Positions 4,507-34,663 of a DNA stretch of 38,199 nucleotides are shown here, piece by piece. How positions within the stretch are numbered: position 1 is the stretch's first letter; each line of letters opens with the position of its first letter. A model generated the notes under the pieces. The model had not been told where the DNA came from. It was given only the letters and a program-made list of their open reading frames with translations, and searched no databases. The stretch is from Gammaproteobacteria bacterium (GTDB lineage Bacteria > Pseudomonadota > Gammaproteobacteria > Eutrophobiales > Eutrophobiaceae): NCBI GenBank assembly GCA_028281365.1, contig JANQJZ010000029.1, positions 1 to 38,199 of the forward strand, given 5' to 3'. The position numbers were made by a program, and so were the translations under genes.

Positions 4507-4764
4507 GATGTAGGTTCTATAAATAGAGATATCATTAAATCAGCCAGACACTATATTACATAGCCGGTGGTTTAAAGGCTGGAATAAGTGTTGAAAAATG
4601 CACTAATTATTGAAAATAAGCTGTGTTGCATTTGAACTTGGTGCATATCCAAGTACAATCTGCACGGTTTTTTGGTACCGGCAAGGCAGAGGGGGCATTG
4701 TCGGTGATTCTTAATACTCTTTTATCCTTCAAATTAATAACTTATAAAAGTTAGGGGAATGTAT
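4507..4764. other. Intergenic region between the DNA glycosylase and hppA
   Basis: A 258-bp region separating two divergent genes, so both promoters should lie here. I see one 6-bp hairpin, ACTTGG (4636-4641) pairing with CCAAGT (4649-4654), and a purine-rich stretch near 4681-4696. No convincing -35/-10 pair or known riboswitch was recognised. The hppA Shine-Dalgarno AGGGGA is at 4753-4758. Confidence 0.4.
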
Positions 4765-6891
4765 ATGTCAGGCATAACAATATGGGTAACTCTAGCCCTG
4801 TCGCTGATGGGCTTGGGAATTGCCTTCTTTTACATGAAGAAGGTTGTAAGTATACCGCTTGATCTTGGGCTGGATGAAGCTCAGGCCAGGAAGCTAACCT
4901 TCATCCACGGTGCTATTGCCGAAGGGGCCATGGCTTTCCTGAAACAGGAATACAAAATCCTGACGATTTTCATGGTGGTATTTGCCGCCATTATCGCCAT
5001 TCTGATTAACGATACTCATACCCCTGATATTCATGAGGGTATCTATACAGCTATCGCTTTCCTCTTTGGTGCCGCGATATCAATCGCTTCTGGTTATATT
5101 GGCATGAAAGTAGCAACTCAAGGTAACGCACGAACTACGGTTTCCGCGAAGAAAGATATTTCTTCCGCTTATGATGTGGCCATTAACTCTGGTGCGGTAA
5201 TGGGATTTGCCCTTGTAGGACTGGCAACCCTCGGACTAATTATCATCTATGTGGTGATGAGTACCTTGCTTGCTGATCTTGGGCCTGAGAACAATCATGT
5301 CCTGATGGAAGTGATTGCAGGCTTTGGACTAGGTGGTTCTACCATCGCATTATTTGCTCGAGTTGGCGGCGGTATCTTCACTAAAGCCGCAGACGTTGGT
5401 GCTGACCTTGTCGGTAAGGTCGAGCAGGGCATCCCGGAGGATGACCCCCGTAACCCTGCTGTGATAGCAGACAATGTTGGCGATAACGTAGGTGATGTTG
5501 CTGGTATGGGTGCTGACCTTTTCGGTTCTTGTGCAGAGAGCACTTGTGCCGCAATGGTAATCAGTGCAGTAGTTTTTGCCGGTAACCCGGATGCATTGCT
5601 ATACCCAATTTTGATCAGTGCTGTAGGTCTGCCAATAGCCTTGATCACCAAGCTAATGGTTGGCGTAAAGACTGAAGATGATGTTGCTCCTGCTTTAATG
5701 AAGCTGCTAGTCATCTCCAGCGCCATCATGGCAGTGGTGATGTACTTCGTTACTGTTGCCCTGATTCCGGGCAACTTCGTTTTGAACGGTGAGGACTATA
5801 CGAATTTAGGCGTTTATTGGTGCTTACTGGCCGGCCTGATAGCGGGCCTGGCGGTTGGATTATTAACCGGTTACTACACGTCCGAAAAATATACCCCAGT
5901 TCAGGAAGTCGCCAAGTCCTGTGAGACTGGTGTTGCTACCAATATTATCTACGGCCTCGCCCTGGGTTATAAGAGTACGGTACTTCCCTACCTGGCAATT
6001 GCAGTAAGCATCTTCATCTCCTGGGAGCTTGCGGGCATGTACGGCATCGCAATCGCCGCTTTGGGTATGTTGGGAAGCCTCGTGCTAACCCTGACTATCG
6101 ATGCTTATGGGCCTGTTGCTGATAACGCCGGTGGTATTGCGGAGATGGTAGGCCTGGAATCAGAAGTTAGACGTAGAACTGACATCCTGGACTCTGCTGG
6201 TAATACTACTGCAGCGATTGGTAAAGGATTTGCCATTGGTGCCGCAATATTGACCTCACTTGCTTTGTTCGCGGCCTTTATTACGGCTGCCGAAACATTG
6301 CGTGGTGAGCCGATTAGAATGAGCTTGCTAGAGCCACTGGTTTTCACCTTCCTCTTCATTGGTGCGGTTCTACCATTCCTGTTCACTGCTATGACGATGA
6401 AGTCGGTAGGTGCTGCGGCATTCGCCATGATTGAAGAAGTGCGTCATCAGTTCAAGACTATTTCAGGCATCATGGAAGGCACGGGCACGCCTGACTACGC
6501 GAAGTGTGTCGCTATATCGACGAAGGCAGCGCTAAAAGAAATGATCGCTCCCGGCGTGTTGATCATGGGCTCGCCAATCGTTGCTGGTTTCCTGTTTGGT
6601 GTTGAAGCTGTAGCGGCTATGTTGATCGGCTCGCTGGTTGCTGGTGGAGTACTGGCCATCGCATCATCTAACAGCGGTGGAGCCTGGGACAACGCGAAGA
6701 AATATATCGAAGCAGGCAACCTCGGCGGCAAAGGCTCGGATGAGCACGCTGCAGCTGTTGTTGGTGATACTGTGGGTGACCCGATGAAAGATACTTCAGG
6801 CCCTTCACTGAACATCCTTATCAAACTATCTGCGATTCTGAGTCTGGTATTTACGCCATTCTTTGTTCAGTATGGTGGTATCTTGTTATAA
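4765..6891 (+). CDS. hppA: Membrane-bound ion-pumping pyrophosphatase, K+-dependent type
   Basis: Integral membrane enzyme that couples PPi hydrolysis to pumping H+ or Na+ across the cytoplasmic membrane. About 16 hydrophobic segments run through its 708 residues. The PPi/Mg site motif DVGADLVGKVE is at 210-220, followed by DDPRNPAVIADNVGDNVGD. GNTTAAIGKG has Ala at residue 483, where K+-independent pumps have Lys, so this is the K+-stimulated class; Na+ versus H+ cannot be decided by eye. I chose the ATG at 4765 over the one at 4759, because AGGGGA (4753-4758) touches the first but sits 6 nt from the second. The gene is visibly richer in G+C and in CTG, GCC and ATC codons than its neighbours, suggesting high expression. 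A strong terminator follows. Confidence 0.96.
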   Translation: MSGITIWVTLALSLMGLGIAFFYMKKVVSIPLDLGLDEAQARKLTFIHGAIAEGAMAFLKQEYKILTIFMVVFAAIIAILINDTHTPDIHEGIYTAIAFLFGAAISIASGYIGMKVATQGNARTTVSAKKDISSAYDVAINSGAVMGFALVGLATLGLIIIYVVMSTLLADLGPENNHVLMEVIAGFGLGGSTIALFARVGGGIFTKAADVGADLVGKVEQGIPEDDPRNPAVIADNVGDNVGDVAGMGADLFGSCAESTCAAMVISAVVFAGNPDALLYPILISAVGLPIALITKLMVGVKTEDDVAPALMKLLVISSAIMAVVMYFVTVALIPGNFVLNGEDYTNLGVYWCLLAGLIAGLAVGLLTGYYTSEKYTPVQEVAKSCETGVATNIIYGLALGYKSTVLPYLAIAVSIFISWELAGMYGIAIAALGMLGSLVLTLTIDAYGPVADNAGGIAEMVGLESEVRRRTDILDSAGNTTAAIGKGFAIGAAILTSLALFAAFITAAETLRGEPIRMSLLEPLVFTFLFIGAVLPFLFTAMTMKSVGAAAFAMIEEVRHQFKTISGIMEGTGTPDYAKCVAISTKAALKEMIAPGVLIMGSPIVAGFLFGVEAVAAMLIGSLVAGGVLAIASSNSGGAWDNAKKYIEAGNLGGKGSDEHAAAVVGDTVGDPMKDTSGPSLNILIKLSAILSLVFTPFFVQYGGILL

Positions 6892-6911
6892 GCGTGTAAA
6901 AAACGTTCGAA

Positions 6912-6941
6912 AAAAAAGGGAGTCAATTGACTCCCTTTTTT
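6912..6941 (+). terminator. Rho-independent terminator after hppA
   Basis: A perfect 30-bp palindrome. Its core GGGAGTCAATTGACTCCC is flanked by six A on the left and six T on the right, 20 bp after the hppA stop. The symmetry makes it able to work in both directions. Confidence 0.93.
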
Positions 6942-6986
6942 AATGCCTGGTAGTGTCATAGTTGCACTATTAATTGTGTCTTTGAT

Positions 6987-7014
6987 TTGATTCGGTCGTA
7001 ATCTTTCATATAAA
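6987..7014 (+). promoter_or_regulatory. Predicted sigma-70-type promoter reading into repeat locus 1
   Basis: TTGATT at 6987-6992 (4 of 6 match to TTGACA) and TATAAA at 7009-7014 (5 of 6 match to TATAAT) are 16 bp apart. Transcription would start near 7021, at the first hairpin of the array, and read on into the secreted-protein gene. Prediction only, in AT-rich DNA. Confidence 0.45.
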
Positions 7015-7018
7015 GTAA

Positions 7019-7250
7019 TGCGCCATGGCTAACACTATAGCGCATTTATCTCCATGGATGGAGTGTATGCCGCGTGAGGACACGACTGCATGGATGCAGG
7101 AGGTAGAACGAATCAGGAGACAGAGTCGAGGATGTCCGAAGCGGCGATTTCCATGGATGGACTGGTAGATAATTGTTCCATACATTATCTACACTTCCGC
7201 CATCCACGGCGATCGTATGCTGCGGATGCATATATGCGCAGGAGCAGCGT
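7019..7250 (+). repeat. Hairpin-array repeat, locus 1
   Basis: A run of short hairpins on the plus strand: TGCGC/GCGCA (7019-7044); CTCC-ATGGAT-GGAG (7050-7063); CGTG-AGGA-CACG (7073-7084); CTGC-ATGGAT-GCAG (7086-7099); TCC-ATGGAT-GGA (7150-7161); a 9-bp stem GTAGATAAT/ATTATCTAC (7165-7192); CGCC-ATCCAC-GGCG (7198-7211); and GCTGC/GCAGC (7219-7248). Between them lie AGGAGG, CAGGAGA and GAGGATG. Shared modules with the other loci include the block around GGAGGTAGAACGA (7098-7110) and GTCCGAAGCGGC (7134-7145). Most apical loops expose GGA, as CsrA/RsmA sites do; this function is inferred. The 3' end runs into the next gene. Confidence 0.8.
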
Positions 7251-7728
7251 TCTCAATTGTGGAATAATTCTTTTTTTGTTTTCTATTTTTCTTTGTTTAT
7301 CAATTTCTGTTTCTGCTGAATCTTTACGCGAATTCCATGAACGAAAGTGTAGTGAAGGAGTTGAAGACAATTGTCAGCGTGCTGCAGATATGTTGAAAGG
7401 TGAACAACACGCGAATCGTATTGATGAACTTGGAGATAGATACGAGAGCCAGATCGATCGATCAAAAATGGAAGAAGAAAACAAACCTTTATTAAAAGAC
7501 GCTTACCTTGAAGTAATGGATGATTATTTTAAAGCCGAAGCTGAAAACGGAATTAAACCATTAGTTGCGGATGAAGTGATTTATTTATGCGCTGAACATT
7601 ATAATGATCACTGGCGTAATCGAAAGATGTGGTGGCCTACTGAAAATAATGGACAGCCGGATTGGTCTTCAATTTACTTTTATATTGTTGAACATTATTA
7701 TGGCTATTGCCTGCGTCAGGCTCTCTAA
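7234..7728 (+). CDS. Putative secreted protein of unknown function
   Basis: A 164-residue protein that I do not recognise. Residues 1-28 form a clear signal peptide (MRRSS start, long hydrophobic core, S-V-S-A end), so it should be exported. The mature part is charged and helical at first and aromatic-rich at the end (WRNRKMWW, YFYIVEHYYGY), with four cysteines. The frame stays open further upstream, but that part reads through the hairpin repeat and is unlikely to be protein. The ATG at 7234 itself lies inside the last repeat hairpin, so the repeat appears to supply the start codon and first residues. Start choice is therefore uncertain; the body of the gene is credible. Confidence 0.65.
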   Translation: MRRSSVLNCGIILFLFSIFLCLSISVSAESLREFHERKCSEGVEDNCQRAADMLKGEQHANRIDELGDRYESQIDRSKMEEENKPLLKDAYLEVMDDYFKAEAENGIKPLVADEVIYLCAEHYNDHWRNRKMWWPTENNGQPDWSSIYFYIVEHYYGYCLRQAL

Positions 7729-7742
7729 AAAATTGCTATTTT

Positions 7743-7771
7743 GTCCTGATGCTTCGTTGTCAGACTTTTTT
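7743..7771 (+). terminator. Possible terminator after the secreted-protein gene
   Basis: GTCCTGA and TCAGAC pair with one bulged C around a 10-nt loop, followed by a six-T run. It lies 15 bp after the stop codon at 7728. The stem is short and imperfect. Confidence 0.35.
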
Positions 7772-7871
7772 AAAATACTCATTTACTTTATGTAAACTCC
7801 GTTTTTAAAAAAGCCTTCCGCCTCGCCTGAGAACAAAATATCTAATTTTTAGAATAACCGTTGTTGAATAT

Positions 7872-8438
7872 TTAAATTGAATTCAAGAGTTGCTGTGTTT
7901 CATAAAGTGGCAATCCCATAACGCCACTGTAACTGCCTTCAAGTCTTTCTATAAAAATTGCACCTTTGCCTTGAATGGCATAACCACCGGCCTTCCCAAG
8001 AGGTTCATCACTTTTACAGTAATTTTTAATGTCATTTGTTGTTAATTGCCGGAAAGTGACTTTACTGATACTTAATAAACTTTGTTCTTTATAAGTTATT
8101 AGCACAACCGAAGATAATACGTCATGTGTTTTCCCTGAAAGTTTTTCCAGCATTAGTCTGGCATCAGTTTGTGTTTCTGCTTTTCCCAGAATCTCTCCAT
8201 TAAGAACAACGGCAGTATCAGAGGCAAGCACGGGTATGTCGTCATTCATTTTGTTTTTTCCCGCCCGTGCTTTTTCTTTGGCAATTCGACAAGTGTAGTC
8301 TTTCGGGTCTTCCTTACCGTCCCAGGATTCATCTATGTCAATATCGATTACATCAAAATCAATACCTATCTGTTTTAACAATTCATGACGACGTGGTGAT
8401 TTGGATGCCAGATAAATTTTTTTAGATGGAATAACCAT
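7872..8438 (-). CDS. maf: Maf-family nucleoside triphosphate pyrophosphatase
   Basis: Cytoplasmic house-cleaning enzyme that hydrolyses non-canonical or excess nucleoside triphosphates to NMP and PPi. The 188-residue length is normal. It starts with the phosphate-binding IYLASKSPRR, has the SDTAVVL motif with the metal-binding aspartate, then GKTHDVLSSV and a C-terminal GKAGGYAIQGKG. This arrangement resembles the YhdE (dTTP/UTP) type more than YceF, but specificity is not certain. It is the last gene of the minus-strand run, 5 nt after rlmH. It makes PPi, which this organism can reuse through Pfp and HppA. Confidence 0.92.
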   Translation of the reverse strand: MVIPSKKIYLASKSPRRHELLKQIGIDFDVIDIDIDESWDGKEDPKDYTCRIAKEKARAGKNKMNDDIPVLASDTAVVLNGEILGKAETQTDARLMLEKLSGKTHDVLSSVVLITYKEQSLLSISKVTFRQLTTNDIKNYCKSDEPLGKAGGYAIQGKGAIFIERLEGSYSGVMGLPLYETQQLLNSI

Positions 8439-15903: not shown

Positions 15904-16054
15904 AATTGCCGCTTCGGACTTCCTCGATTCTAGCTCGAAAATGTGCTCCCGGCATTTTCTACCGCCTACATCCGTGTAGGCGTCCTGATTCGTTCTCGGT
16001 CTCCGTTCCAGACTCGACTCTACCGATTACATCCATGTAATCGTACCTCCTGCG

Positions 16055-16142
16055 TCCATGCGCCCGCTGCATACGACCGCCATGGATGGCGGAAGCGATT
16101 TTTGTTCCCGACAAATCGCCCTTACCTACGTCCTGTAGGCAA
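16055..16142 (-). repeat. 88-bp inverted repeat, left copy
   Basis: Perfectly identical, as reverse complement, to 21319-21406. It contains the CCTAC-AGGAC-GTAGG, TTTGT-CGGGA-ACAAA and CCGCC/GGCGG hairpins. The two copies bracket the porin, phoB, phoR and pstS. Confidence 0.95.
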
Positions 16143-20260: not shown

Positions 20261-21268
20261 ATGACTATAAAGAGATTATCAGCATGTCTGGTTGCACTTT
20301 CTATGTTGTTACCTATGTCATCAATGGCAAAAGATAAGGTTGACGCTGGTTTAGCAGATTATGCTAAGGCAAGTGGTGTTTCTGGCAATATCAGCAGTGT
20401 CGGTTCAGACACCCTCGCAAATCTTATGACCTTATGGGCGGAAGAATTCAAACGCCTTTATCCAAATGTGAATGTACAAATTCAGGCGGCAGGTTCTTCG
20501 ACCGCTCCACCAGCCTTAACAGAGGGAACATCAAACTTTGGCCCTATGAGCCGAAAGATGAAAGATAAGGAAATTGCAGCATTTGAAAGTAAGTTTGGTT
20601 ATAAACCTACGCCGATTGGTGTCGCAATTGATGCTCTAGCCGTGTATGTCAATAAAGATAACCCAATTAAAGGTCTAACGATTCCACAAGTCGATGCAAT
20701 GTTTTCAGCAACACGTAAGTGTGGCTACGCTAGCGATATTACTACCTGGGGACAGCTTGGGTTAACCGGTGACTGGGCAAATCGTCCAGTTCAGCTTTAC
20801 GGTCGTAACTCGGTATCAGGTACATACGGTTATTTCAAAAAGAAGGCTCTATGTAAAGGTGACTATAAGGATAATGTAAATGAGCAACCCGGTTCTGCAT
20901 CTGTTGTACAAGGTATAACCAAATCACTTAATGGTTTAGGTTATTCGGGTATTGGATACAAGACCTCTGGTGTTAAGGCAGTAGCATTAGCCAAGAAGGC
21001 AGATGGTAAATTTATTGAAGCTACACCTGAGACTGCATCAACAGGCAAGTATCCTTTGGGCCGTTTTTTATATGTTTATGTAAATAAACAACCAAATAAG
21101 CCATTGCCCCCTTTGGAAAGTGAATTCATCAAAATGGTTTTATCCAAGACAGGTCAATTAGTTGTTGTTAAAGATGGATATATTCCATTACCTGCAAAGG
21201 TAGCTGAAGGTGAATTAGCTAAAGTTACAGGGCAAGGTTCTGACGCAGAGAATATTGTAAAGAAGTAA
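20261..21268 (+). CDS. pstS: Phosphate ABC transporter substrate-binding protein PstS
   Basis: Periplasmic phosphate-binding protein that feeds the PstCAB transporter. The 335-residue protein has a signal peptide ending S-S-M-A at residue 23. Phosphate-binding segments are visible: [10 protein letters not shown] near the N-terminus, [12 protein letters not shown], and [12 protein letters not shown]. These are typical of the gammaproteobacterial PstS form. The gene stands alone behind tandem PhoB boxes and a good Shine-Dalgarno, and ends at its own terminator. High output relative to the membrane genes is therefore expected, as is usual for a binding protein. Confidence 0.96.
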
Positions 21269-21318: not shown

Positions 21319-21406
21319 TTGCCTACAGGACGTAGGTAAGGGCGATTTGTCGGGAACAAAAATCGCTTCCGCCATCCATGGCGGTCGTATGCAGCGGGCG
21401 CATGGA
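21319..21406 (+). repeat. 88-bp inverted repeat, right copy
   Basis: Perfect reverse complement of 16055-16142; I compared all 88 positions. The match ends exactly at both edges (bases 21318 and 21407 differ from the other copy). Confidence 0.95.
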
Positions 21407-21505
21407 TGCGCAGGAGCTGCGTTCTCCATAGATGTATGTATGCCGCTACTGCATGGGCAAGGATTGTTCCCAACAATCCTATTGCATTTCCTCCATCCAT
21501 GGAGG
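21319..21505 (+). repeat. Hairpin-array repeat, locus 3
   Basis: Hairpins between pstS and pstC: CCTAC-AGGAC-GTAGG (21322-21336); TTTGT-CGGGA-ACAAA (21346-21360), extended by GCGA/TCGC; CCGCC-ATCCAT-GGCGG (21369-21384); a two-tier hairpin GCAGC/GCTGC (21391-21420) enclosing GCGC-ATGGAT-GCGC (21398-21411) plus an unpaired AGGA; a 9-bp stem AGGATTGTT/AACAATCCT (21460-21480); and CCTCC-ATCCAT-GGAGG (21490-21505). Most plus-strand loops carry GGA; two carry its complement. The minus-strand open frame across this region merely reads the repeat. Confidence 0.82.
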
Positions 21506-21624: not shown

Positions 21625-23910
21625 ATGAATACGAATGAGGCTGTTGCAGATTCACCTCTGCTTCATGATTTTAACTCCCAAACCGCAAAAAAATACCGTA
21701 AATGGCGTCATATTAAAGATGTTGCAACCCGGCATTTGATGGCGTTTGGTGGTGTAAGCGTAATTATTGCGATTGTTTTGATTGCTTTTTACTTATTGTA
21801 TGTCGTTATTCCTATGTTTAAGTCGGCAGAAATTGAGTCGATCGCCAGCTATTCACTTCCAGGTAATGCTAATACAAAATCTTTGATGTATGCGATGGAG
21901 GAGCAACGTGAAGTTGCTTTACGTATTGATGAACAAGGTAAGGCCGTATTTTTTGCTACGGTTACGGGTGAAATACGTAAAAGCATTGATCTTAATATTC
22001 CGCTTGATTTGTCTATAACAGCAGTAGCGGCAGGCGATCAAACTGAAAAAATGATTGGTCTGGGATTATCAGATGGCAGTGTTTTATTTTTTCAACATAA
22101 TTATGATGTTTCATATCCTGACGATGTTCGTTTAATCACACCTTTTATAAGTTTTCCATTTGGGGAGACACCAATACAGCTTAATAAAGCAGGCGAATCT
22201 ATTAAGCAATTAAGTGTTCAATACGATGGCGAACAGGCAACTTTGGTTGCTCATGGATCTCGTGCACAAATAAATCTTGTTAGTCTGATAAAAGAAGAAT
22301 CAATGTTAAGTGATGAAATTAAAATTTCACGAGAAGAAAGTGTTATTCCTGTCGATACCGGAGATATTGTTGAGTTGCGAATAGATATCGAACAGCGCGA
22401 AATGTATGTCGCAGATAAACTTGGCAATATATATTTTTATAATATCAGTAATAAAACGGAACCAAGATTAATACAAAAAGTCAGGGCAGTTGAAGATGAT
22501 ATTACTATAACTGCCGTGGAGTTTTTAGCGGGAGGTATCTCTATATTGGTTGGTGATACAACGGGGCAAATTGCACAATGGTTTCCGGTAAGAGATGACG
22601 AAAATAATTATACGTTACAAAAAATAAGAACCTTTAATAAACAAAAATCTTCCATAACTGAAATTGCTCCGGAACATTCTCGTAAAGGTTTTGTTGCTAT
22701 TGATGAAAGTGGAGAAATGGGTATTTATCATACAACGGCACATCGTACTGTTTTACTCGAACAAATTGATGATCATGTACTTAATGCTATTGTATTGTCC
22801 CCTCGGGCAAATGCGGCATTAATAGAAAATGATAAAGCCCAATTACAATTTTGGCATTTTCATAATGAACATCCGGAAATATCCTGGCAATCTATATGGG
22901 GAAAGGTTTGGTATGAAAGTCGAGATAAACCGGAATACGTATGGCAGTCTTCTTCAGCCAGTAGTGATTTCGAACCAAAATTCAGCTTAACACCATTAGC
23001 ATTTGGAACGTTTAAGGCAGCGTTTTATGCAATGATGTTTGCTATTCCGCTTGCCATACTTGGTGCGATGTATACAGCCTATTTTATGGCGCCAAAGATG
23101 CGCCAGGTTGTAAAACCTACAATCGAAATTATGGAAGCATTACCCACAGTAATATTGGGATTTTTAGCAGGCTTGTGGTTGGCACCTTTTGTTGAACTGC
23201 ATTTACCTGGTATGTTTATCATGATTTTTTGTGTTCCTTTAAGCATCGTTTTCGCTGCTGCCGTTTGGGAATTTATTCCTGACAATATAAAACATAAAGT
23301 TCCAGAAGGTTGGGAGGCAGCTTTGCTTATCCCTGTCGTTATTATTGCTGTTTGTTTTTCAGTCTTAATTAGTCAACCCGTTGAGAATTTATTGTTCGGG
23401 GGTAACTTACCTTTATGGCTAAGTCAGGAACTTGGAATTACCTACGATCAACGAAATTCAATGGTAGTTGGTTTTGCAATGGGTTTTGCTGTAATACCTA
23501 CAATATTTTCAATCAGCGAAGATGCGGTTTACAGTGTTCCAAAACATTTAACGACAGGTTCTTTAGCATTAGGCGCTACACCCTGGCAAACCATGATGCG
23601 AGTCGTTTTATTAACTGCCAGCCCAGGTATTTTTTCTGCAATCATGATTGGTCTTGGTCGTGCTGTGGGTGAAACCATGATTGTTGTTATGGCAACAGGT
23701 AATACTGCAATCATGGATATGAGTATCTTTGAGGGATTTCGTGCCTTATCAGCAAACATTGCTGTAGAGATGCCGGAGACAGAGGTTAACAGTACTCACT
23801 ATCGTATTTTGTTCCTGGGCGCCCTGGTTTTATTTGCCGTGACATTTCTTTTCAATACGATTGCTGAAGTCGTTCGACAACGGTTACGTACTAAATACAG
23901 TTCATTGTAA
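21625..23910 (+). CDS. pstC: Phosphate ABC transporter permease PstC (long form)
   Basis: Membrane subunit of the high-affinity phosphate importer. At 761 residues it is the long gammaproteobacterial form. It has one N-terminal membrane span (about residues 40-67), a large periplasmic domain of roughly 390 residues rich in beta strands, then the five-to-six-span permease core with the EAA-type loop ([18 protein letters not shown]) that contacts PstB. The function of the large insert is not known to me. Its TAA overlaps the pstA ATG by one base (23910). There is no Shine-Dalgarno, and the predicted start of transcription lies at the ATG. Confidence 0.95.
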   Translation: MNTNEAVADSPLLHDFNSQTAKKYRKWRHIKDVATRHLMAFGGVSVIIAIVLIAFYLLYVVIPMFKSAEIESIASYSLPGNANTKSLMYAMEEQREVALRIDEQGKAVFFATVTGEIRKSIDLNIPLDLSITAVAAGDQTEKMIGLGLSDGSVLFFQHNYDVSYPDDVRLITPFISFPFGETPIQLNKAGESIKQLSVQYDGEQATLVAHGSRAQINLVSLIKEESMLSDEIKISREESVIPVDTGDIVELRIDIEQREMYVADKLGNIYFYNISNKTEPRLIQKVRAVEDDITITAVEFLAGGISILVGDTTGQIAQWFPVRDDENNYTLQKIRTFNKQKSSITEIAPEHSRKGFVAIDESGEMGIYHTTAHRTVLLEQIDDHVLNAIVLSPRANAALIENDKAQLQFWHFHNEHPEISWQSIWGKVWYESRDKPEYVWQSSSASSDFEPKFSLTPLAFGTFKAAFYAMMFAIPLAILGAMYTAYFMAPKMRQVVKPTIEIMEALPTVILGFLAGLWLAPFVELHLPGMFIMIFCVPLSIVFAAAVWEFIPDNIKHKVPEGWEAALLIPVVIIAVCFSVLISQPVENLLFGGNLPLWLSQELGITYDQRNSMVVGFAMGFAVIPTIFSISEDAVYSVPKHLTTGSLALGATPWQTMMRVVLLTASPGIFSAIMIGLGRAVGETMIVVMATGNTAIMDMSIFEGFRALSANIAVEMPETEVNSTHYRILFLGALVLFAVTFLFNTIAEVVRQRLRTKYSSL

Positions 23911-33624: not shown

Positions 33625-33829
33625 AAGAAGTGTTTATCTTCTTCGACAACTTGCACCTAAAGGTAGACTACACACTTCCAGACGTTGTCTACCGCTTCGA
33701 CTCTGTCTCGAAAATGTGTACCTACAGGTAGGCTAGAAACGCACTCCCCGACATTTTCTACCGCCTCGACTTTATCTCCTGAGTCGTTCTACCTCCTGCA
33801 TCCTTGCAGTCGTACATCCATGTAGGCGA
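33625..33829 (-). repeat. Hairpin-array repeat, locus 4
   Basis: Fills the gap between sixA and the methyltransferase stop codon. On the minus strand: TAC-ATGGAT-GTA (33813-33824); CTGC-AAGGAT-GCAG (33796-33809); a GACT/AGTC hairpin with CAGGAGA in its loop; an 8-bp stem GAAAATGT/ACATTTTC (33710-33758) enclosing CCTAC-CT-GTAGG (33721-33732); and a 6-bp stem GACAAC/GTTGTC (33645-33689). A further AAGAAG/CTTCTT hairpin is at 33625-33643. The block around GGAGGTAGAACGA matches locus 1. The first base of the array follows the methyltransferase TAA directly, so the array would be its 3' untranslated region. Confidence 0.82.
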
Positions 33830-34663
33830 TTATTTTTCTGCGACTAGGTAAGCAATCCACCCGGCATCAGCATCCCCTTCTGTTTCAGGTATGAAAACGC
33901 CGTTTCCCTCACCGTCTTCATCAGCCTGTTCCCAGTATACAGTTGCCTTAAAACCAGCTTCGGTTAACATTTCCAGCAATTCCGGCAAAGTCCAGATCCG
34001 CCATTCATAGGTGAAGGCTTTCATTATCTTTGAACCGTCCTTGAATTTAAAATGAATATAATTCGTTGAAATCCCGGTTATCGGGTTATATCGATGCTGG
34101 TCCCAAATATAGGTAAATGTCTTATGTTTAGTTTTTTCTATCATTTCCTGAAAGGCCTCATAACCACCGTATGCATCGAGAAAAAAGATTCCATCATCAA
34201 CAAGAGATTTATATATTTTTTTAAAATACTCGATCGTCAACTTTCTCTCTTTTAATAGCCAATAACTAAAATTCATTGCCAGGACAATATCAACTGGTTT
34301 GGTTTTCACCTTTAATATGTCTTCGTTAATTATTGAGATTCGTTTTTTTTGTTCCGGTGATAATTTTGATATTTTATTTTTTTTGCCCCACTCAAGAACA
34401 TCATTATCCAGATCAATGGAAATGGCTGTATTTGTTTTACGACGTCTTACCCATTCGCATGATGTATTTGTTGTACCACAGAAGTCTTCACGTAAAGTCG
34501 ATGCTTTTCGTTTGCGAATTTTTGTGAATGTTTCGTCTACAAAATCTATTTCAGACTCAACACATTGTACTGACTCTTCATAATAAATATGCTTATCAGC
34601 CAATTCAGCCATGCTGGGTCCGTTTTGTTTCTTCTGTTTGTTTTTCTTGTTTTTTGAAGCCAT
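33830..34663 (-). CDS. Class I SAM-dependent methyltransferase, substrate unknown
   Basis: A 277-residue protein. After a basic Lys/Asn/Gln-rich N-terminus (KNKKNKQKKQ) comes a Rossmann-type methyltransferase domain. LREDFCGT takes the place of the glycine-rich SAM loop, SIDLDNDVLEWG carries the acidic residue for SAM ribose, and IVLAMNFSYWLL is motif IV. The C-terminal part (FTYEWRIWTLPELLEMLTEAGF) is typical of small-molecule methyltransferases, but I cannot name a substrate. I chose the ATG at 34663 over an in-frame GTG at 34675; neither has a good Shine-Dalgarno. The stop codon abuts repeat locus 4. Confidence 0.8.
   Translation of the reverse strand: MASKNKKNKQKKQNGPSMAELADKHIYYEESVQCVESEIDFVDETFTKIRKRKASTLREDFCGTTNTSCEWVRRRKTNTAISIDLDNDVLEWGKKNKISKLSPEQKKRISIINEDILKVKTKPVDIVLAMNFSYWLLKERKLTIEYFKKIYKSLVDDGIFFLDAYGGYEAFQEMIEKTKHKTFTYIWDQHRYNPITGISTNYIHFKFKDGSKIMKAFTYEWRIWTLPELLEMLTEAGFKATVYWEQADEDGEGNGVFIPETEGDADAGWIAYLVAEK

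Follow-up and report, generated by a model that had tools for sequence, protein, structure and literature searches.

A dispersed hairpin repeat as the probable source of the start codon of a small-protein gene in a gammaproteobacterial genome

We analyzed a 38,199-nucleotide stretch of gammaproteobacterial DNA (hereafter the window), which constitutes contig C26 of a 2.2-Mb draft genome and in which an array of short hairpins runs into the gene for a protein of 164 amino acids. The history that we consider likely for this locus is that an array lying behind the terminator of a second pyrophosphatase gene was captured as the start of the small-protein gene, with transcription arriving from upstream and with a leader that could possibly respond to CsrA. 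The array probably supplies the start codon and the first few residues of the gene, and CsrA responsiveness of the leader appears less likely than the capture of the start. This explanation was built on sequence, homology, covariation, and orthologue comparison, from which translation from position 7234, the source of transcription, and the regulation are inferred. If translation from 7234 holds, the locus would clearly exemplify how a structured repeat of mostly intergenic location was turned into the start of a conserved gene, with the repeat-free state of the same gene displayed by its orthologues.

The small-protein gene and its start-codon unit

The ORF of the small protein (7234-7728, plus strand) is located between hppA1, the gene for an H+-translocating pyrophosphatase (4759-6891, plus strand; PF03030, 828 bits), and a minus-strand Maf gene (7872-8438; PF02545), the latter being a frequent downstream neighbor of the small-protein orthologues. 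The protein had no match in Pfam, PHROGs, or NCBIfam. Read from the ATG at 7234, its product starts with the signal-peptide-like segment MRRSSVLNCGIILFLFSIFLCLSISVSA followed by ESLREF, in which, by eye, a hydrophobic core can be recognized between a basic n-region and a plausible cleavage site, suggesting that the protein is probably secreted or exported. A match to a pyrophosphate-dependent phosphofructokinase subfamily (NF010675) was also found in the window at 1499-2764, near the proton pyrophosphatase gene, and in the stretches fetched from genomes G034, G035, and G050, relatives of this phosphofructokinase are likewise close to a pyrophosphatase gene.

The hairpin array reported in the preliminary description of this DNA proved to be real. 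Two plus-strand hairpins with a CsrA-site-like loop, CTCCATGGATGGAG at 7050-7063 (CTCCA-TGGA-TGGAG) and CTGCATGGATGCAG at 7086-7099 (CTGCA-TGGA-TGCAG), are followed on the same strand by a degenerate hairpin of 4 bp, TTCCATGGATGGAC at 7149-7162 (TCCA-TGGA-TGGA), which was aligned with GTTCATGGATGAAC of G050. The last member of the array is a two-helix unit at 7219-7248 (plus strand) with an outer helix formed by 7219-7223 and 7244-7248 and an inner helix formed by about 7226-7230 and 7235-7239. The ATG at 7234, described earlier as lying inside the last array hairpin, was indeed located at the loop and 3' arm of this unit. The noncoding homologue noted before at 21391-21420 was likewise recovered, since the 64-nt repeat unit at 7194-7257 is 86% identical (E 5.2e-15) to the plus-strand segment 21366-21429, which is flanked by one ORF that ends at 21268 and another that starts at 21625 and is accompanied by a 94-aa antisense frame as the sole other ORF of at least 80 aa. 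Relatives of the start unit occur at other places in the genome, and a further copy of the repeat in the window (16028-16121, minus strand; 92% identity), which by eye is devoid of the 3' outer arm, belongs to an array at about 15940-16130.

Six chosen copies of the unit were aligned with both helices, namely window 7216-7248 and 21388-21420, three other places in the same genome, and G050; the set comprised five of the six listed own-genome matches (C48:1390 was left out) plus G050, and the copy at 16028-16121 (without the outer 3' arm) and partial copies on contigs C76 and C38 stayed outside it. In this alignment, 96.7% of the 60 cells were paired, and changes on both sides that preserve pairing were observed in 5 of the 10 pairs. 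The covariation score reached 0.427 compared to 0.199 in shuffled alignments (0 of 500 shuffles were as high) and at most 0.133 in slid versions, although the copies were picked by their common core and the structure was drawn from the same sequences, and the slid control is therefore lenient. Scanning for the two-helix form revealed 8 instances in the own-genome sample and two orthologue loci versus 0 in reversed sequence. In the window copy, the inner helix is weakened and the GGA of the loop is lost: the start-codon hairpin presents TATA, whereas the other five aligned copies present TGGA. The leader at 7015-7260 folds somewhat better than its shuffles (z -2.1; 7 of 200 were as good), the G050 leader folds better than its shuffles (z -2.8; 1 of 200), and the 67-nt piece around the window unit alone folds no better than shuffles (z -0.7; 40 of 200).

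Orthologues with and without the repeat

The small protein was identified in 28 of 144 related genomes, its own included. Among the 27 matches outside the window, only the match in G050 begins at residue 1, and none of the others reaches upstream of residue 10. Of the 27 loci examined (window included), 3 carry array hairpins close to the start, namely the window, G049, and G050. The locus L044, with one CANGGATG near the start and no 5-bp hairpin, and the locus L032, with one unrelated NGGA hairpin, were not included in this array count, and L050, a 40-aa match, was excluded from the orthologue study.

In G050, the hairpins GTTCATGGATGAAC and GTGCATGGATGCAC are present, and the second of them holds an ATG at the place corresponding to 7234. 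From this ATG, G050 and the window align without gaps into the hydrophobic core (MHKSNVLQRKII versus MRRSSVLNCGII), the next gap after the core being 6 nt long and in frame, and the start-codon hairpin of G050 retains TGGA. The array of G049 is degraded, and the start would fall in a different hairpin. G035 has neither the array nor the window-type N-terminus, and its likely start lies in a terminator arm. Nine further loci (L027-L035), inspected by eye, possess starts of their own, such as MRKQLLLSIF and MNFRRPFLIL, and carry no array; the upstream pyrophosphatase gene points the other way in these loci. No orthologue combining the window N-terminus with absence of the repeat, which the preliminary description had named as the finding that would speak against capture, was encountered among the 27 loci. 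The earlier proposal that the repeat was captured as leader and start is thus supported by the same N-terminus together with the repeat in G050, by the lack of both in G035, and by the other, repeat-free N-termini of L027-L035. The simplest account of these patterns is a loss of the native start in the window group, with the repeat giving a new one. A protein tree of 22 of the 27 loci (L041 and L046-L049 were left out) fits either a single gain of the array with a loss in G035 or more than one gain. A Fibrobacter protein (L057) that matches residues 1-38 and shares LNCGIILF in the signal-like segment was rejected as an orthologue because its match is confined to this segment and stops before the mature part.

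Start capture is rare as far as sampled. A called ORF start falls in 1 of 27 hairpin clusters, the window one, a rough figure, as the filter removed hairpins lying within called ORFs and as a few other clusters have hairpins 22-60 nt away from gene starts. Rickettsia palindromic elements (RPEs) are dispersed palindromic repeats that add in-frame codons to host genes (PMC10969869). If translation starts at 7234, the window would resemble them in that a dispersed repeat contributes N-terminal codons to a conserved gene. RPEs, as characterized in the same source, are joined in frame to ORFs and code for a conserved peptide (PMC10969869), whereas in the window a mostly intergenic hairpin array gives one gene a start codon and an n-region; the comparison was made by description rather than by RPE sequences.

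Terminators, pseudogene remnant, and origin of the leader

The hppA1 gene is followed by an intrinsic terminator at 6912-6941 (plus strand), a perfect 15-bp inverted repeat with a T run that is omitted by the terminator scan as a repeat without a loop. Its core, GGGAGTCA-TTGACTCCC, is kept in G049, G050, and G035 with at most one base changed, and in all four genomes the terminator of the first pyrophosphatase gene is followed by a piece of a second one. In the window, this piece (6960-7016, plus strand) is what remains of the 3' end of a decayed second hppA, recognized by alignment with G049, G050, and G035; blastn supports 7005-7047 only (88% over 43 nt to G035), and the rest was assigned via the alignment with G050 and G035. 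By tblastn, the second-hppA copies of the three relatives match pyrophosphatase, with 51.6% over residues 618-703 in G049, 45% and 60% over two stretches in G050, and just 20 residues (E 0.007) in G035, whose remnant DNA is 81-88% identical to the G049 and G050 copies. A second pyrophosphatase gene is thus seen decaying behind an intact one at differing stages in four relatives (window 6960-7046; L081, L082, and L083).

After the remnant, G049, G050, and G035 carry a stem and then a T run (CGCCATGGGTAACCCTATGGCGCATTTTTT in G050), as judged by eye, and the corresponding plus-strand segment of the window, 7017-7046, is a decayed intrinsic terminator of the second hppA with a mismatched stem, a broken T run, and a folding energy of -12.0 kcal versus -15.2 in G050. 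The preliminary description had taken this segment for the first hairpin of the array and had proposed a promoter (6987-6992 and 7009-7014) that would start RNA at it. Both proposals were abandoned, as the former corresponds to the second-hppA terminator of the relatives and the latter to a pseudogene end. Promoter-like letters are present (TTGATT at 6987-6992 and TATAAA at 7009-7014, 16 nt apart, with 9 of 12 matches) and are composed of the end of the second hppA and the base before its terminator. In favor of the earlier proposal, G049, G050, and G035 retain a weaker pair with the spacing kept (TTGATC, 16 nt, TTTAAA), but it stands directly before the intrinsic terminator, and an RNA begun there would be expected to hit the terminator immediately. 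Since the promoter scan rejects the window pair (its last base is not T), 3.5 +/- 2.1 accepted pairs are expected by chance in the scanned 1.1 kb, and in the relatives a terminator follows at once downstream, the pair was not regarded as evidence for a promoter. An inverted divergent pyrophosphatase gene was also considered as the cause of the native-start loss and was rejected, because the G049 and G050 remnants share only 46-65% protein identity with the divergent pyrophosphatases of G018, G029, G034, and G039, which in addition have other terminators at their 3' ends.

The proposed course of events begins with a dispersed hairpin array, the units of which follow the plan GCNGC..CA-NGGA-TG..AGGA..GCNGC, that would have been inserted or would have grown just behind the terminator of the decaying second pyrophosphatase gene and would thereby have been placed immediately ahead of the codons for the hydrophobic signal-peptide core of a small exported protein. 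The last unit would provide ATGCGCAGGAGC (Met-Arg-Arg-Ser), that is, a start codon and a basic n-region, and GCGGA at 7222-7226, located at the base of the unit 7 nt upstream of the start, could serve as a weak ribosome site. The window gene would no longer have the native start of the other relatives. Transcription would probably come from upstream via the decayed terminator, and the array RNA with its at least two CA-NGGA-TG hairpins may render the leader CsrA-responsive.

Two alternatives concern where the gene begins and where the array RNA ends. The ATG at 7234, earlier called the only reasonable one, is by eye the only one that would give the hydrophobic stretch an immediately preceding basic n-region, but in-frame ATGs at 7090, 7132, and 7153 exist, and with them the frame stays open across most of the array, so that a longer product is possible. 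Initiation at, e.g., ATG 7090, which has GAGGA 9 nt before it in a frame open from 7078, would make the array coding along most of its length and yield a product of 212 aa, and the upstream frame is open in G050 too. However, this product would bear 48 extra residues ahead of the signal-like segment, and the sequence before that segment varies in length and letters among the window, G049, and G050; we therefore consider an upstream start very improbable. CsrB-type RNAs contain several GGA hairpins in a row, a feature shared by the array, and arrays occur between genes elsewhere in the genome, as might be expected if the array were a separate CsrB-like decoy small RNA ending before the gene and the gene were read from another promoter. 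The array nevertheless runs into the ORF, with hardly any space ahead of ATG 7234 for a terminator or promoter, and no terminator was listed in the scan of 6800-7900, an argument of low weight given that the scan misses the plain terminator at 6912-6941 too. A decoy RNA at this position is thus unlikely in our judgment, and a search of the window against Rfam at gathering scores returned 0 matches, CsrB/RsmZ-type RNA included.

Distribution of the repeat and possible CsrA control

The motif CATGGATG was found 134 times in the own genome versus 35 times in the reversed control, and TACANGGATGTA 32 times versus 0. Across the class, TACANGGATGTA was matched in 95 of 185 genomes, with at least 14 matches in 8 of them and high counts in G135 (62 versus 1 reversed) and G061 (52 versus 0). 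The TACANGGATGTA-type repeat is abundant in a scatter of gammaproteobacterial genomes. The pattern GCANGGATGC was matched in all 53 genomes of the family (36 versus 2 for the reversed pattern in the own genome), occurs at low numbers in genus g17, whose genomes are small, and in G046 does not exceed the control (25 versus 24). In two of six loci read in G061 (L148 and L154), GTACANGGATGTAC is followed by a hairpin within GCTGC..GCAGC, the same plan as in the window. In G135 (L147, L149, L151, L153, L155, and L157), CANGGATG hairpins lie within elements about 150 bp in length that have long inverted arms (GAGACAGGGATTG..AACAGAGAC / GTCTCTGTT..CCTGTCTCG), which by eye have the look of a mobile form.

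Like REP/BIME elements, the arrays consist of short palindromes that are mostly intergenic, clustered, and of mixed orientation. Hairpins of the NGGA type closed by CA/TG numbered 50 in intergenic DNA and 11 in called ORFs. The cluster count skips hairpins inside called ORFs of at least 110 aa, and a cluster of three hairpins at L060 2460-2586, which lies in a frame of 117 aa, therefore falls outside the 27 clusters. The genome encodes three Y1_Tnp genes, none of which is flanked by array hairpins within 1.5 kb on each side (by eye), and mobilization of the array by a RAYT/REP system was rejected on this ground; in a further difference from REP/RAYT systems, two of the three genes have, by eye, inverted flanks of other sequence. 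The Y1 transposase genes at L101 and L102 possess short inverted flanks of their own (GGGGTCAGTGTCGATTG and AGTGCCGGAGTGAATATTT, respectively) that are unrelated to the arrays.

The form of the hairpins raises the question of CsrA control, which we regard as plausible for the small-protein gene in view of the loop form and the presence of CsrA. The CsrA consensus obtained by SELEX is RUACARGGAUGU, with a preference for hairpins carrying GGA in the loop (PMC4347634), and the loop form CA-NGGA-TG equals the core of this consensus. With their serial CA/TG-closed NGGA tetraloop hairpins, the arrays are similar to CsrA/RsmA leaders and CsrB/RsmZ decoys (PMC4347634), from which they differ in occupying dozens of dispersed places in one genome and in giving no Rfam match in the window. 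In the open-access literature, the scope within which we searched and which most subscription papers lie beyond, no description of these arrays was found.

Under the most specific form of this idea, CsrA dimers would occupy three NGGA hairpins (7055, 7091, and 7154) as well as the GGA of the ribosome site, repressing the gene until CsrB-like RNAs remove CsrA. In its favor, a CsrA gene (92 bits) is encoded in the genome, and GGA occurs in hairpin loops of the 5' region at 7055 and 7091 (7154 is degenerate). In a sample of 737,572 own-genome bases, TGGA (with its complement) was the most enriched tetraloop among loops seen at least 8 times (47 versus 9.5), and TACANGGATGTA (21 versus 0 reversed) and ACANGGATGT (26 versus 7) were also in excess, although the first 20 stretches of this sample were picked with the CATGGATG list in view, which inflates the enrichment, and the next 20 were likewise not random. 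Furthermore, GGAs outside the hairpin cores favor the hairpin strand (120 versus 64), with 17 clusters having more, 5 fewer, and 3 equal numbers (p 0.017); this count covered 25 of the 27 clusters, with the window cluster extended to 7154, and omitted two copies of a different 10-bp hairpin (L058 7083 and L059 5451). CsrA was present in 18 of 18 chosen motif-rich versus 14 of 18 chosen motif-free genomes, a weak point, as these 36 of 185 genomes were hand-picked for high counts or for zero counts with a completeness of at least 99. However, 47 of the 53 genomes of the family, genomes of the repeat-poor genus g17 among them, encode CsrA, and its presence was rejected as a discriminator for this reason. 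The GGA at 7224-7226 lies within the presumed ribosome site, but the loop of the start-codon hairpin of the window is TATA, not TGGA. The full SELEX consensus occurred just twice in the sample (RTACARGGATGT, 2 versus 0), the CGGA, AGGA, and GGGA loops were only about twofold enriched, equally to a few non-NGGA loops (TGGG, 2.3-fold), and the hairpins within one array often face both directions. In G050, 20 stretches of one contig (400 kb) displayed no NGGA enrichment (TGGA 5 versus 4.0). CsrA repression in this form is accordingly a tentative proposal that we doubt more than we believe. The mixed orientation and mostly intergenic position of the arrays, together with the called ORF start in 1 of 27 clusters, also fit a palindromic repeat of the REP/MITE type, selfish or structural, that has no role here, the start capture being accidental and tolerated by selection. 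The compensatory changes and the same-strand GGA excess argue for a functional RNA form somewhere, though not specifically at the small-protein gene, and we give this neutral origin a little under an even chance. The broader possibility that several gammaproteobacterial families carry the dispersed CsrA-site-hairpin repeat as a mobile source of post-transcriptional control and new protein N-termini is rather speculative. If true, a spreading repeat would plant ready-made CsrA sites before genes and, in the window, a start codon and a basic n-region as well. The CsrA-core form of the repeat and its abundance make it testable whether regulator sites are spread by a repeat or arise gene by gene.

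The window contains two more arrays, both on the minus strand, at 33650-33840 and 15940-16130, in which hairpins are followed by GGTAGA linkers and longer stems such as GTAGAAAATGT..ACATTTTC occur. An identical 20-nt hairpin, CGATTACATGGATGTAATCG, was observed at four sampled places, i.e., L061 9496, L065 12880, L072 8550, and window 16032.
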